DNA from: Gammaproteobacteria bacterium
GTDB taxonomy: Bacteria > Pseudomonadota > Gammaproteobacteria > Steroidobacterales > Steroidobacteraceae
Length of the DNA stretch: 64,000 nt
Assembly: GCA_025359565.1 (NCBI GenBank)
Contig: JANYFY010000009.1
Span: forward strand, 558,001-622,000
Reading direction: 5' to 3'
The notes under the pieces were generated by a model. That model made no database searches. It worked only from the letters and a program-made list of their open reading frames with translations, and had not been told where the DNA came from. A program made the translations under genes and the position numbers. The number at the start of each line of letters is the position of its first letter. Position 1 is the stretch's first letter. Below are positions 30,341 through 35,059 of this stretch, piece after piece.

Positions 30341-31201
30341 TCAATCCGTATTGCGCGCCGCCGATCGCAGCATTGAGAATGCAGCATAGGCAATCACTAC
30401 GATTACTAACCATCGCAAAGCCACCATGGGGAGGCTTTTAACGATGTAGGCCGCGATTAACACACCCACCGCACCACCTACGGCCAATCCCAGGGCGGGA
30501 CCCCAGGCAAAGCGCCCGTTCTGAAAGAATCGTAGGCTTGCAACCGGTTGTACTAGAGCGCACGACCCCATCATAATCGGAAATGCGGCGAGTGGCTGCA
30601 TCCCGAGCAGGGCCAATGTGATCATACAAGGCGCATACAAGCCTATACCCGAACTCATGAGCGCCCCTAGAAGAAAGTTGATTGACACGGCAACGCCAAA
30701 TTTCCATCCAACCAAACTCATCGCGGTGCCGCCGCCCGGAAGCGCTCCGGTATTAATTGCTGTAAAAACTATCCCGGCAATCGTGAGCGCCAGCCCCATG
30801 GCGGTCTGAATTGCGCGACGCGGCAACCTTGCTACCACGCCTGCACCTAACCATGCGCCGATGGCCGCTGCACCCACAGTGCACACCAGTAACACAGGAT
30901 CGACTGCTATCGAGGTGACAAAAATGAGTGAGGAAATAAGCGCCGCAGGGGTATGGCCAATGTTGAGCGTACCCGGGATCAACTCGTCAGGGACCATATG
31001 CCGTAATTTATAAATGGCAGTGGTCGGCGCAAACGAGCCAATTCCTAGCGTATCAAAAAAATCCGTCACTAATCCAATGATTAGCTCAAACGGTGTGGGC
31101 CTGCGTAGCGCGCCGCGTTTCGCCGCTTGCGCTGCGCCGAGTATGAAAGCCAAACCAGCGCAACTCAATGCCAGGTAAAACGCCAGTTGTGCAATATTCA
31201 T
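30341..31201 (-). CDS. TauE/SafE-family membrane permease
   Basis: A 286-residue multi-pass membrane protein with the repeated TauE/SafE pattern: GLVTDFFDTLGIGSFAPTTAIY near residue 45, and in the second half SSGIGLYAPCMITLALLGM with GALMSS. The family exports or imports sulfite, sulfoacetate and other organosulfur anions; the cargo is unknown here. Its start is 107 bp from the divergent amine dehydrogenase operon. Confidence 0.85.
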   Translation of the reverse strand: MNIAQLAFYLALSCAGLAFILGAAQAAKRGALRRPTPFELIIGLVTDFFDTLGIGSFAPTTAIYKLRHMVPDELIPGTLNIGHTPAALISSLIFVTSIAVDPVLLVCTVGAAAIGAWLGAGVVARLPRRAIQTAMGLALTIAGIVFTAINTGALPGGGTAMSLVGWKFGVAVSINFLLGALMSSGIGLYAPCMITLALLGMQPLAAFPIMMGSCALVQPVASLRFFQNGRFAWGPALGLAVGGAVGVLIAAYIVKSLPMVALRWLVIVVIAYAAFSMLRSAARNTD

Positions 31202-31308: not shown

Positions 31309-32466
31309 ATGACACAAAAAATTGTATTCCGTGTTGCAGCTGCGGCATTAAATTTAAGTTTTTTCGCGGTAAGTTTTGCCGTTGCGGAAGAATTTCCGAG
31401 CCCTTTGCCGACGGAAACGTTGCTGACTATTAATAAATTGCCGGCTAAATATCCCACTGGTTGGGCGTTCTTGAATTATTCGACCAACAGAATTGAGTTG
31501 CGCAATGTGGCTTCGGATAGCGGGGCGGTAAAGGGGAATCTCCAGTCCCGCGACTCGGCGACTTTGTTGGTCTCTGATACACGTCCTGAAATTTATGTGG
31601 CTGATACGGTTTGGTCGCGGGGCACGCGCGGCGTGCGCACCGATTTTATTTCGATATACGATCGCGAGACCTTGAATCCGGTGGGTGAAATCGTTTTGCC
31701 GGGTGCTAAGCGTGGTCTGATGACGGCGATGGAAGGGATGTTTGCGTTTACTGACGACCAAAAGATGGCATTGGTATTCGATCTGACACCGCAAGCGCTG
31801 GTAACAGTAGTCGACCTCGTCAATCGCAAGGTGCTTGGGGATATAGAAATTCCCGGCTGCGCGCTGGTATATCCAACAGGAAAACGCGGATTCTCGACAC
31901 TTTGTTCAAGCGGTACGATGCTTTCGGTACAATTAGATGCTAATGGCGCGGCTGTTAGCCGCAGCGAGACTAAGGTATTCAATCCTCTAGATAGCGATCC
32001 GCTTTTCACGGCTTCAACAGAGTTAGCTGGAATTCATTATTTCCCGTCATTTCATGGGCGAATTCAAGCAATCGACCTGCGGGGTGACGCGGCAAAAATT
32101 CTGTCTGACTGGCCGCTTGTACCGGCCGCTGACATTTCAGGTAATTGGCGTCCCAGCGGTTGGCAAATTTTGGCAAGTGACGAACATAAGTTACTGTATA
32201 TTCTGATGCAACGGAACGGCCATGAAGGCACTCATAAAGAGCCCGCCAATGAGGTATGGGTTTATGATCCAACATCCAAGACTCGGGTACACCGACTCCC
32301 GTTAGTCAGACCCGGCACTTCATTGGCGCTGACCCATGGTCCCGAAGCGTTGATGTTGGTACAAGCGGGTGAGCGTCTGGATGTCTATGATTTAAAGGGA
32401 GCGCTGCTGCGCAGCTTGGATTTGCCTGGTTTTAACACCCGTATGCAAATGGAGCCATTGCGTTGA
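31309..32466 (+). CDS. Quinoprotein amine dehydrogenase heavy chain
   Basis: The 385-residue periplasmic subunit with a signal peptide (cleavage near residue 26, AVAEE) folds as the seven-bladed propeller of the MauB/AauB family. Visible blade segments are YVADTVWSRGTRGVRTDFISIYD, ALVYPTGKRGFSTLCSSG and NEVWVYDPTSKTRVHRL. It forms an A2B2 complex with the TTQ light chain encoded by the fourth gene. It is the first gene of the operon and overlaps mauE as TTGA. Whether the enzyme uses methylamine or aromatic amines cannot be told from sequence alone; the heavy-light-chain order with E and D between them is shared by both. Confidence 0.9.
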   Translation: MTQKIVFRVAAAALNLSFFAVSFAVAEEFPSPLPTETLLTINKLPAKYPTGWAFLNYSTNRIELRNVASDSGAVKGNLQSRDSATLLVSDTRPEIYVADTVWSRGTRGVRTDFISIYDRETLNPVGEIVLPGAKRGLMTAMEGMFAFTDDQKMALVFDLTPQALVTVVDLVNRKVLGDIEIPGCALVYPTGKRGFSTLCSSGTMLSVQLDANGAAVSRSETKVFNPLDSDPLFTASTELAGIHYFPSFHGRIQAIDLRGDAAKILSDWPLVPAADISGNWRPSGWQILASDEHKLLYILMQRNGHEGTHKEPANEVWVYDPTSKTRVHRLPLVRPGTSLALTHGPEALMLVQAGERLDVYDLKGALLRSLDLPGFNTRMQMEPLR

Positions 32467-33017
32467 GTGGAATTCCTGTATCACTGCTTACCGTTAGCCA
32501 ACAGTTACTGACACAACTAGGGTTATTCGCGGCATTTTTGTTGATTCTGTCGAGTGGTCATAAGTGGTTGCAGCCGTTACGCATGCGCGCCGCCGTACAG
32601 AAATTGACGGGGGTGCGGCGTTTTGCGAGCGCAGGTGTAGCCGTTGTTTCGCTATGCGAATTCTGCGCGGGCGTGTTGTTATTAGTGCCCGGCACACGAC
32701 ACGCGGGCGCCATCTTGGCGTTACTGATTTGGAGTGCCTATTTCTTGTTGATTGCGCGAGCTTGGGCGTCGGGTCATCGCGATCTGGATTGTGGCTGTAG
32801 TTTCGGATCCATCCATCAGCGCTTAGGGGTTTTTCCGTTAGTACGAAATGTAAGCTTAGTAGGCATTGGGCTGGCATTAGTAGGGTATCCCACTAGTTTT
32901 TCTGATTCTCTTACTGCTGAGCGCATCCTTGTAGCCTCCGCTTTGTTGGCTCTTTACGCGGCTCTTGATCAAGTCATGGCGTTACAGCCCATTCGCCACA
33001 CGGGAGAAGTGATTTGA
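32463..33017 (+). CDS. mauE: MauE-family membrane protein
   Basis: A 184-residue membrane protein with four to five helices, related to DoxX/MauE. The diagnostic DLDCGCSFG cysteine pair lies near residue 117. MauE is required, with MauD, for correct disulfide formation in the light chain, which has six disulfides. The start is TTG overlapping the heavy-chain stop, and the stop overlaps the mauD start in the same TTGA manner. Confidence 0.88.
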   Translation: MSGIPVSLLTVSQQLLTQLGLFAAFLLILSSGHKWLQPLRMRAAVQKLTGVRRFASAGVAVVSLCEFCAGVLLLVPGTRHAGAILALLIWSAYFLLIARAWASGHRDLDCGCSFGSIHQRLGVFPLVRNVSLVGIGLALVGYPTSFSDSLTAERILVASALLALYAALDQVMALQPIRHTGEVI

Positions 33018-33604
33018 GCTTCCTGGTCGCCTCGCAGATTGTGCTTTGGGTGGCGGTGTTGGTATTGGCAATGGTCTGCCTCGTACTTGCTCGTCAGGTG
33101 GGTGTATTGCATCAACGGGTCGCGCCAGCCGGTGCATTGTCGCTACCACAGGCTTTGAAAATCGGCGATTTAGCGCCAGAAATGCTACTTGCCGCCTTAG
33201 ACGGAACAGAGGTTAAGGTGGGTGGGGTACGAGCTGGGCGAAGTCAACTTTTGTTGTTTGTATCTCCGGGTTGCACGGTGTGCGAAACCTTGTTGCCGGC
33301 GTTACGTTCCGCACAAGGAGCGGAACGGAAATGGCTAGATATCGTATTGGCGAGTGACGGCGAATCCGATAATCATGTCGAGTATGTCCGTAGCAAGGGA
33401 TTAGCTAAATTCCCGTATGTTTTGTCCGAAAAATTAGGGCGTGGTTTCGGCGTTGCGAAGTTGCCCTATGCAGTTCTAATTGACGAGGTAGGGAGGTTAG
33501 CTTCAACTGGTTTGGTCAATACGCGTGAACATTTGGAAAGTTTGTTCGTCGCTAAAGAAAGTGGCATTAGTAGTATTCAGCAGTTCCTCATTCAGCGCGG
33601 TTAA
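33014..33604 (+). CDS. mauD: MauD-family thioredoxin-like protein
   Basis: A 196-residue protein with an N-terminal membrane anchor (about 5-27) and a periplasmic thioredoxin fold. The redox site is PGCTVC (Cys87, Cys90), and KLPYAVLID supplies the cis-proline loop. MauD acts as a disulfide oxidase or isomerase for the light chain. The start is TTG and overlaps mauE by 4 nt; the light-chain gene follows after 27 bp. Confidence 0.9.
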   Translation: MSFLVASQIVLWVAVLVLAMVCLVLARQVGVLHQRVAPAGALSLPQALKIGDLAPEMLLAALDGTEVKVGGVRAGRSQLLLFVSPGCTVCETLLPALRSAQGAERKWLDIVLASDGESDNHVEYVRSKGLAKFPYVLSEKLGRGFGVAKLPYAVLIDEVGRLASTGLVNTREHLESLFVAKESGISSIQQFLIQRG

Positions 33605-33631
33605 GACGCGCGCATCGTCGGGAGAATTAAA

Positions 33632-34144
33632 GTGGCTCAATTTGATCATCTAGCGGAAAAAATGCTTCGCGGTTTTGCAAGTCGTACCTCGCGCCGGAGT
33701 ATTTTTACGGTATTGGGTTCTTTGTTGGCAGGTGCAGCGACTTTGCCGCTGTTGCCAGTGGCGCGCGCGCAGGATACTGGAAATCTTCAAGATCCAGGTG
33801 ATCCGAGCCGTTGCGATTACTGGCGCTATTGCGCGATTGATGGATCGTTGTGTTCTTGTTATGGAGGTAGCGTGACTGCATGCCCGCCAGGAACGGAGAT
33901 GTCACCCGTGACTTGGATTGGAACTTGTCGAAATCCCGCGGACCAACGTAACTATATTATTTCTTACAACGATTGCTGCGGGGGTGTTCCTTGGGGGCGT
34001 TGTGCATGTCAGCGTAACGAAGGCGATAGACCGGTTGTCAGGCCGCAGAATAATAACGAAATCACCTGGTGTTTTGGCACGCAAAGTCAGTCTTATACCT
34101 GCACCGTAGCGCTTGTGTTGGGGGTTGCCATTGACCAGAAGTAA
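33632..34144 (+). CDS. Amine dehydrogenase light chain with TTQ cofactor
   Basis: The 170-residue precursor of the catalytic subunit carries a Tat signal (SRRSIF near residue 20, cleavage near ARAQD). The mature part has 12 cysteines (61, 67, 74, 76, 84, 99, 115, 116, 124, 126, 147, 157), matching the six disulfides of MauA. The tryptophan pair that becomes tryptophan tryptophylquinone is Trp95 (VTWIGTC) and Trp146 (ITWCFG); the catalytic aspartates correspond to Asp70 and Asp114. The start is GTG with GGGAGA upstream. It oxidises a primary amine to aldehyde and ammonia and passes electrons to a cupredoxin or cytochrome c. Confidence 0.95.
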   Translation: MAQFDHLAEKMLRGFASRTSRRSIFTVLGSLLAGAATLPLLPVARAQDTGNLQDPGDPSRCDYWRYCAIDGSLCSCYGGSVTACPPGTEMSPVTWIGTCRNPADQRNYIISYNDCCGGVPWGRCACQRNEGDRPVVRPQNNNEITWCFGTQSQSYTCTVALVLGVAIDQK

Positions 34145-34613
34145 GTTTTTTTTTGAGGTGTTGTTCGCACTTGGCATGATTGCTTGCACGCCCATTCAAA
34201 GCGCTGAGTTAACCGAGAGCAAACCGGGAGTTGCGATATTTGCTACGCGTTGCGCCGTCTGTCACGGGCCCACGGGTGCCGGCATCCCCGGGAGCTTCCC
34301 ATCACTCCATGCGCAAGTAGAAGCGTTCGCCAAGAGTCCCCAGGGACTTGATTATTTAGTCATGGTCGTGTCAAAAGGTTTGATGGGTGAATTGAAGGTC
34401 GCAGGAATCAAGTTCAACGGTGTTATGCCCCCCCAGTCTGGACTTAACGATGCCGAGGTGGCATCTGTGGTGAACTTCCTGGCAAGCGGTTTGGGTAAAA
34501 ACCCTGCCGCTGGATCTGTCTTAACAGGGAGCGATGTAGCCGCTATCCGCGCCCGGTTGAGCGCGCAGACACCGCAGCTGACGCGTGCTGCAAGGCCCGT
34601 GTTTACCGAGTAA
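34131..34613 (+). CDS. Monohaem c-type cytochrome
   Basis: A 160-residue exported cytochrome with a signal sequence and the haem motif CAVCH near residue 41; a GVMPPQ segment further on can supply the axial methionine. The start is uncertain: TTG at 34131 overlaps the light-chain gene by 14 nt and has GGGG upstream, while TTG 34113 and 34125 are possible. As the next gene in the amine dehydrogenase operon it is a plausible electron acceptor. Confidence 0.85.
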   Translation: MTRSKFFFEVLFALGMIACTPIQSAELTESKPGVAIFATRCAVCHGPTGAGIPGSFPSLHAQVEAFAKSPQGLDYLVMVVSKGLMGELKVAGIKFNGVMPPQSGLNDAEVASVVNFLASGLGKNPAAGSVLTGSDVAAIRARLSAQTPQLTRAARPVFTE

Positions 34614-35059
34614 TGAGAGTCGCGCTCCTGCTAACGTTCGTTCTGGTGTCGCACTCTGTTGTGGCACAAGGGCTTCTAGCGCCTGTGGGCATCGAAAATC
34701 CACAACGGGCATGGCAACATTGGACGTTAAACTGCCAGGGCTGCCACCTTCCGAGTGGCTTAGGCTCCGTAGGCGGCGCACCTGATCTGAGTCGAGTCGC
34801 CCAGTTTTTGTGGCTGCCGGCTGGACGCGAATATTTGGCGCGCGTGCCCGGGGTCGCTGCATCCCCGCTCGGTGACGCCGACTTAGCGGAGGTTCTAAAT
34901 TGGATGTTGTGGCGCTTTGATAAAGAACATCTACGAGCAAATTTTAAAGCGTACACGGCGGCCGAGTTGAAGCCTTTGCGACGCCGCCCCTTACGGATGG
35001 AGGCCTCTACGATGCGCATAGAGTTATTGAAGCAAATCAAAGCGAATCCGGCTCTCTAA
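34613..35059 (+). CDS. Small c-type cytochrome, second in the amine dehydrogenase operon
   Basis: A 148-residue protein with a cleavable signal peptide (SVVAQG) and one haem motif, CQGCH near residue 41. An axial methionine is not obvious; candidates lie in LNWMLW. It starts in the last base of the previous gene's stop (TAATG), so the pair is coupled. It likely takes part in electron transfer from the amine dehydrogenase or in cofactor assembly. Its stop overlaps that of the convergent acyltransferase gene by 4 nt. Confidence 0.82.
   Translation: MRVALLLTFVLVSHSVVAQGLLAPVGIENPQRAWQHWTLNCQGCHLPSGLGSVGGAPDLSRVAQFLWLPAGREYLARVPGVAASPLGDADLAEVLNWMLWRFDKEHLRANFKAYTAAELKPLRRRPLRMEASTMRIELLKQIKANPAL

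Follow-up and report, generated by a model that had tools for sequence, protein, structure and literature searches.

The 64,000-nucleotide stretch of contig JANYFY010000009.1 that we analyzed, hereafter the window (positions 558,001 to 622,000 of the forward strand; assembly GCA_025359565.1, a gammaproteobacterium of the Steroidobacteraceae), contains what is, by its sequence, a genuine operon for an amine dehydrogenase dependent on tryptophan tryptophylquinone (TTQ), a quinone that the enzyme carries as a cofactor derived from its own residues. Its six genes, all on one strand, encode the heavy chain, MauE, MauD, the light chain and two c-type cytochromes that we refer to as cytA and cytB (Table 1). 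This is the order given in a preliminary description of the DNA, and both the coordinates and the profile matches agree with it. Consecutive genes overlap by 4, 4, 32 and 1 bases, and the single gap, of 27 bases, separates mauD from the light-chain gene. Both mauF and mauG are absent at the locus, and the operon is a member of the MauG-less kind of TTQ operon, which was already known. Our principal concern here is the last of the six genes, cytB.

Table 1. Genes of the TTQ amine dehydrogenase operon, in window coordinates
Feature	Position	Strand	Evidence
Amine dehydrogenase heavy (alpha) chain, 385 aa, signal peptide	31309..32466	+	PF06433 (Me-amine-dh_H) 3.1e-36
mauE-like membrane protein (light-chain export/disulfide maturation)	32463..33017	+	PF07291 (MauE) 3.1e-18
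mauD-like thioredoxin-fold accessory protein	33014..33604	+	TIGR02661 3.8e-52; 176.5 bits, slightly below cut-off 188.6
TTQ light (beta) chain, Tat-type leader (SRRSIF), Trp95, Trp146, 12 Cys, Asp70, Asp114	33632..34144	+	PF02975 (Me-amine-dh_L) 1.5e-48; alignment with methylamine dehydrogenase and relatives
cytA: mono-haem c-type cytochrome, His/Met ligation (distal Met in NGVMPP), likely electron carrier	34113..34613	+	PF00034 1.2e-10
cytB: 148-aa mono-haem cytochrome without Met loop (RVPGVAAS), proposed TTQ maturation factor	34613..35059	+	78-row family alignment; predicted c552-like fold

Pfam and NCBIfam profiles identify the heavy chain, MauE, MauD, the light chain and two class I c-type cytochromes, and both enzyme subunits pass their family thresholds, the light chain with 164 bits (PF02975, cut-off 25) and the heavy chain with 125.5 bits (PF06433, cut-off 21). 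The preliminary description had credited the light chain with both TTQ tryptophans, 12 cysteines and both catalytic aspartates, and all of these are present in the sequence and hold up on alignment: the cysteines form the six-disulfide set, Asp70 and Asp114 occupy the positions of Asp32 and Asp76 of methylamine dehydrogenase (MADH), and Tyr155 is invariant across the nine sequences aligned. The mau operons of Paracoccus denitrificans and Methylobacterium contain homologues of mauB, mauE, mauD and mauA in the same order as in the window, and their light chains have the TTQ tryptophans, catalytic aspartates and cysteines in common with the one described here. Unlike those operons, however, the window operon lacks mauF, mauG, mauJ, mauM/N and amicyanin, and its enzyme is 31% identical to theirs and falls under the curated MADH cut-offs. 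As had been noted, cytA and cytB each contain a single CxxCH motif; their Pfam matches are restricted to PF00034/PF13442, and neither combines the two CxxCH motifs and the PF03150 similarity of the MauG/bacterial cytochrome c peroxidase (bCCP) family.

MauG completes TTQ by acting on a mono-hydroxylated precursor, which it oxidizes at long range by way of a high-valent di-haem state (PMC7876137; PMC6405878). The preliminary description had reported mauG to be missing from the operon and had pointed out that a homologue elsewhere in the genome would make this a split locus. We searched the whole assembly (3.14 Mb, 33 contigs, 98.35% complete) with PF03150 (CCP_MauG), which gave positives in two control genomes, and with a profile made from the MauG sequences of four mau operons, and found no match to either. 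Because a genome that is 98.35% complete contains no CCP_MauG protein, the window operon is not a split locus. A second TTQ operon in the same genome, on contig C4, likewise lacks mauG. Among 27 genomes with TTQ loci, PF03150 detected no CCP_MauG protein in 10, including the single-contig genomes G058 and G190 (in G190 the MauG profile gave one partial match of 19 bits). Where CCP_MauG proteins were present, they were recorded either on a different contig or at a long distance from the TTQ genes. Where the Tyr ligand of MauG would stand, only the Met typical of peroxidases occurs in 3 of the 27 (including G456, of the same genus as the window genome, whose sole candidate is a bCCP-type protein) and only His or Gln in 2. 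In all, 15 of the 27 genomes have no Tyr-ligated protein of the MauG type and 12 have an unlinked one.

The preliminary description did not single out either cytochrome. CytB lacks a Met loop, tracks MauG-less operons (see below) and is not an ordinary carrier. The AlphaFold model of cytB is a confident all-helical cytochrome (pLDDT 94.8), for which a fold search returned Thermus cytochrome c-552 as the nearest structure (TM 0.63). The cytB profile aligns to Thermus thermophilus c-552 in two stretches, skipping chain residues 52–72, the segment that contains the Met ligand of c-552, Met69. The two proteins are alike in fold and in sequence on either side of the deletion, including the GREYL motif and a C-terminal extension, and differ in that cytB has V-P-G in place of the Met-ligand loop. 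From its sequence, then, cytB is in effect a relative of c-552 in which that loop has given way to a near-invariant V-P-G. Across 78 diverse family members, the CxxCH set, P41, R56, P63, G64 and N80 are invariant and V62 is almost so; no column contains Met in more than 50% of them. A few members do have a Met near the motif, such as the copy on contig C4 (GVAMSA), so that Met is unconserved rather than always absent. Because the Met loop has been lost, the sixth coordination site of the cytB haem is predicted to be open or weakly held, probably making it enzyme-like rather than carrier-like. CytB is part of an in-frame fusion in four genomes (loci L150–L153; G466, G448, G484 and G490), where a domain that seems to resemble a phosphotriesterase-type amidohydrolase follows at its C-terminus.

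To establish the distribution of cytB we compared approximately 170 operons, comprising the 80 nearest relatives of the window operon, named plasmids and loci from genome samples (many are close relatives and thus not independent), with the final tally made using the cytB profile alone. In 154 loci cytB is present together with neither mauG nor mauF. By contrast, all seven loci of the methylamine type, which bear mauF, are without cytB; five of them have a linked di-haem gene and two a MauG-like gene elsewhere in the genome. Eight loci have neither cytB nor mauF/mauG; one of these (L074) reaches the end of its contig 149 bases past the light chain, and the other seven (L046, L058, L065, L140, L219, L304 and L311) are heavy- and light-chain pairs without mauE or mauD, in six genomes that carry cytB elsewhere (the genome of L304 and L311 also has L305). 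Thus, the association of cytB with MauG-less TTQ loci is near-perfect, and cytB is excluded from loci with mauF or mauG. We also drew 399 genomes evenly from the phylum. Strong matches to cytB (at least 100 bits) were found in precisely the 11 that encode a full-length light chain; the other 388 had none, with a best score of 40 bits. In this sample the copy numbers of cytB and the light chain are equal, including in the three genomes with two copies (G000, G146 and G288).

Consistent with these findings, clustering of neighboring genes at 97 loci with full flanks recovered the light chain at 97, the heavy chain at 96, cytB at 95, mauD at 86 and mauE at 85, with no other family at more than 60. 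In most loci cytB immediately follows the light chain or cytA. In G486, which is a single contig, mauE, mauD and cytB form a separate operon some 1.2 Mb from the heavy- and light-chain genes, and tandem double enzymes usually combine two heavy and two light chains with a single mauE, mauD and cytB (five loci). The family next in frequency is a TonB-dependent receptor, found within approximately 7 kb of 60 of the 97 MauG-less loci, a hint of outer-membrane uptake of an amine- or metal-bearing compound. Tandem loci with two heavy- and light-chain pairs, mostly with one mauE, mauD and cytB, include L027, L034, L039, L052, L054, L072 and L077.

The partner cytochrome behaves differently. The distal Met of cytA is conserved in 98% of 54 homologues, consistent with its being a likely electron carrier, and cytA is optional in the MauG-less class, missing from many loci that have cytB.

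With its missing Met loop and its almost perfect association with MauG-less TTQ operons, cytB offers the best lead on the way in which this class completes TTQ. We propose that the window operon specifies a MauG-less type of primary amine dehydrogenase, TTQ-dependent and periplasmic, whose TTQ is completed by cytB acting as an open-site mono-haem protein, a reading to which we assign a probability of about 0.5. According to this proposal, the heavy and light chains would be exported to the periplasm (the light chain probably by the Tat pathway), MauE and MauD would help the light chain to fold and to form its disulfides, and the electrons of reduced TTQ would reach the respiratory chain through cytA and other c-type cytochromes, all of which is expected from the sequences and from what is known of these families. 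CytB would replace MauG in the completion of TTQ: its haem, with the distal site free or weakly held, would react with H2O2 or O2 to give a ferryl intermediate that oxidizes Trp95 and Trp146 and thereby adds the second hydroxyl group, forms the cross-link and yields the quinone. We infer the open haem site, the peroxide chemistry and the maturation role. With MauG and the di-haem cytochrome c peroxidases (PF03150), cytB would share this proposed job only, the haem-based oxidation of the tryptophans of pre-TTQ; it is a mono-haem protein with a class I cytochrome c fold and no similarity to PF03150. The separate mauE-mauD-cytB operon of G486 and the single cytB of tandem double enzymes are suggestive of a maturation role.

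The most serious alternative, although in our judgment a less likely one, is that cytB is the obligate electron acceptor of the enzyme, in place of amicyanin or azurin, and that TTQ forms spontaneously or through an unlinked enzyme. All TTQ enzymes need an acceptor, the mauG-bearing loci of Paracoccus and Methylobacterium have amicyanin instead of cytB, and both the usual position of cytB behind the light chain or cytA and its likeness to c-552 would suit such a function; the co-occurrence that we observed also fits a dedicated acceptor, and a shared acceptor could also be single in tandem loci. However, cytB is without the Met loop that sets the potential and the six-coordination of a carrier, it is often accompanied by an ordinary His/Met cytochrome (cytA), and G486 places cytB with mauE and mauD, away from the genes for the enzyme. 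Moreover, the mauG-bearing locus of Indioceanicola has no amicyanin beside mauA and yet has no cytB.

We regard as improbable a second alternative, in which cytA and cytB together make up a two-protein, split MauG whose six-coordinate haem resides in cytA and whose open haem resides in cytB. Such a division would account for the presence of Met ligation in one cytochrome and its lack in the other, and for the adjacency of the two genes, which overlap in the window and are neighbors in approximately 30 relatives; many loci with cytB have no cytA, however, even if another c-type cytochrome could substitute for it. Similarly doubtful is the idea that TTQ is made without a dedicated enzyme, or by an unrelated and unlinked one, and that cytB has some other role such as removing peroxide at the enzyme. 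Copper amine oxidases form their own quinone unaided, and the fact that only cytB, mauE and mauD are constant near the enzyme leaves room for an unlinked gene, but this idea leaves unexplained a c-type cytochrome that is confined to TTQ loci and is as constant as the enzyme itself. Least probable by far is a MauG-type di-haem enzyme missed elsewhere in a draft genome, for although this assembly is incomplete and in 33 contigs, and 12 of the 27 TTQ genomes have an unlinked Tyr-ligated protein, the negative searches of this genome and, with PF03150, of the closed genomes G058 and G190, together with the Met-ligated protein of G456, mostly refute it.

Several further points weigh against assigning TTQ maturation to cytB. 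The assignment comes from sequence and gene association, and the mauF/mauG sample against which the exclusion of cytB was judged is small (seven loci). CytB does not always accompany the accessory genes, given that 10 loci have it with heavy and light chains and without mauE or mauD. Loss of the Met is no proof of an open site, as another residue, the N-terminus or water may bind there, and among Pfam and NCBIfam models cytB matched no family more specific than generic cytochrome c and has no solved structure. In addition, MauG has two haems and reaches a bis-Fe(IV) state; a protein with one haem would have to work differently or pair with cytA, and many loci have no cytA.

To our knowledge, TTQ biosynthesis is understood through MauG alone, and nearly all of the TTQ operons in our samples are MauG-less. 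Our literature search found nothing on MauG-less TTQ formation or on the biogenesis of aromatic amine dehydrogenase (AADH), and the definition of cytB as a signature gene and likely maturation factor of the MauG-less class appears to be new. A small gene exclusive to MauG-less operons, with a product structurally primed for haem-oxygen chemistry, makes the question of MauG-free TTQ formation experimentally simple. If the proposal is true, one haem would suffice for a reaction believed to require an enzyme with two haems and a bis-Fe(IV) state. More tentatively, and at a little under even odds, cytB may found a new family of TTQ-maturation enzymes, open-sited mono-haem class I cytochromes that serve most TTQ amine dehydrogenases of the Pseudomonadota, with MauG as the minority solution.

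With respect to the identity of the enzyme, the preliminary description had raised the possibility of the aromatic amine type. The architecture is in keeping with this, as the aau operon of Pseudomonas aeruginosa RW109 (genes named aauB and aauA) has the same heavy-mauE-mauD-light-cytochrome-cytochrome order and no mauG; the aau cluster of Alcaligenes faecalis, too, reportedly lacks mauF, G, L, M and N and contains a gene for a small mono-haem cytochrome (literature of 2001). AADH is a crystallized TTQ enzyme. Compared with solved structures, the window's heavy chain is nearest to that of AADH (E 5.7e-40), with MADH next (8e-31), and AADH falls within the class that has cytB. But the phylogeny of heavy and light chains that had been proposed as a check, run with 108 sequences, separates the window enzyme from AADH: the AADH of A. 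faecalis groups with the aau loci of P. aeruginosa (support 0.992), four mauG loci split off (support 1.0), and the window enzyme lies in a clan of 71 sequences, mainly from Gammaproteobacteria and sphingomonads, that excludes both AADH and MADH (support 0.999). Over both chains, A. faecalis AADH and the window enzyme are 33% identical, whereas the nearest relatives of the latter, which include metagenome-assembled genomes of Steroidobacteraceae and other gammaproteobacteria, show 64–74% identity. The operon belongs to the large MauG-less class that contains AADH, in a clade different from that of AADH. (A. faecalis itself was sought in 399 genomes of the family of G146 and not found; the best light chain was 65%.)

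The tree speaks against AADH in the strict sense. MADH is rejected by the curated equivalog cut-offs, by the tree and by the lack of mauF and mauG at the locus: on TIGR02658 and TIGR02659 the heavy chain scores 127 bits (cut-off 454) and the light chain 168 (cut-off 197), against 678 and 399 bits for MADH of P. denitrificans, used as a control. The substrate is predicted to be a primary amine.

Other TTQ loci differed in individual features. The second operon of the window's own genome (L003, 7898–11630 of contig C4) is divergent and runs heavy chain, mauE, mauD, light chain, cytB and a further c-type cytochrome, followed by a TonB-dependent receptor; its light chain is just over the NCBIfam MADH cut-off (198.5 versus 196.85) and its heavy chain is under the corresponding one. 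The AADH-like light chains of P. aeruginosa RW109, Chimaeribacter and genome G780 (L007, L010 and L268) have lost standard cysteines, with CSTSGG replacing CSCCGG and the CGRCxC region altered. Two mauF-bearing gammaproteobacterial loci, L310 and L312, have a 7-haem cytochrome near the light chain. The linked di-haem gene of L310 encodes Met, not Tyr, at the MauG ligand position and may specify a peroxidase rather than MauG; we counted L310 as a mauF-type locus and not as proof of MauG. Outside the Pseudomonadota, a plasmid of Thermomicrobium roseum (L186, below our light-chain threshold) carries several light-chain-like open reading frames and a MauE-containing fusion without mauG or cytB. 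Finally, a gene for a membrane protein of the TauE/SafE family (window positions 30341–31201, minus strand) lies divergently approximately 108 bases from the heavy-chain gene, and a TauE/SafE gene is also found near the operon in the close relatives L012, L013, L017 and L021.

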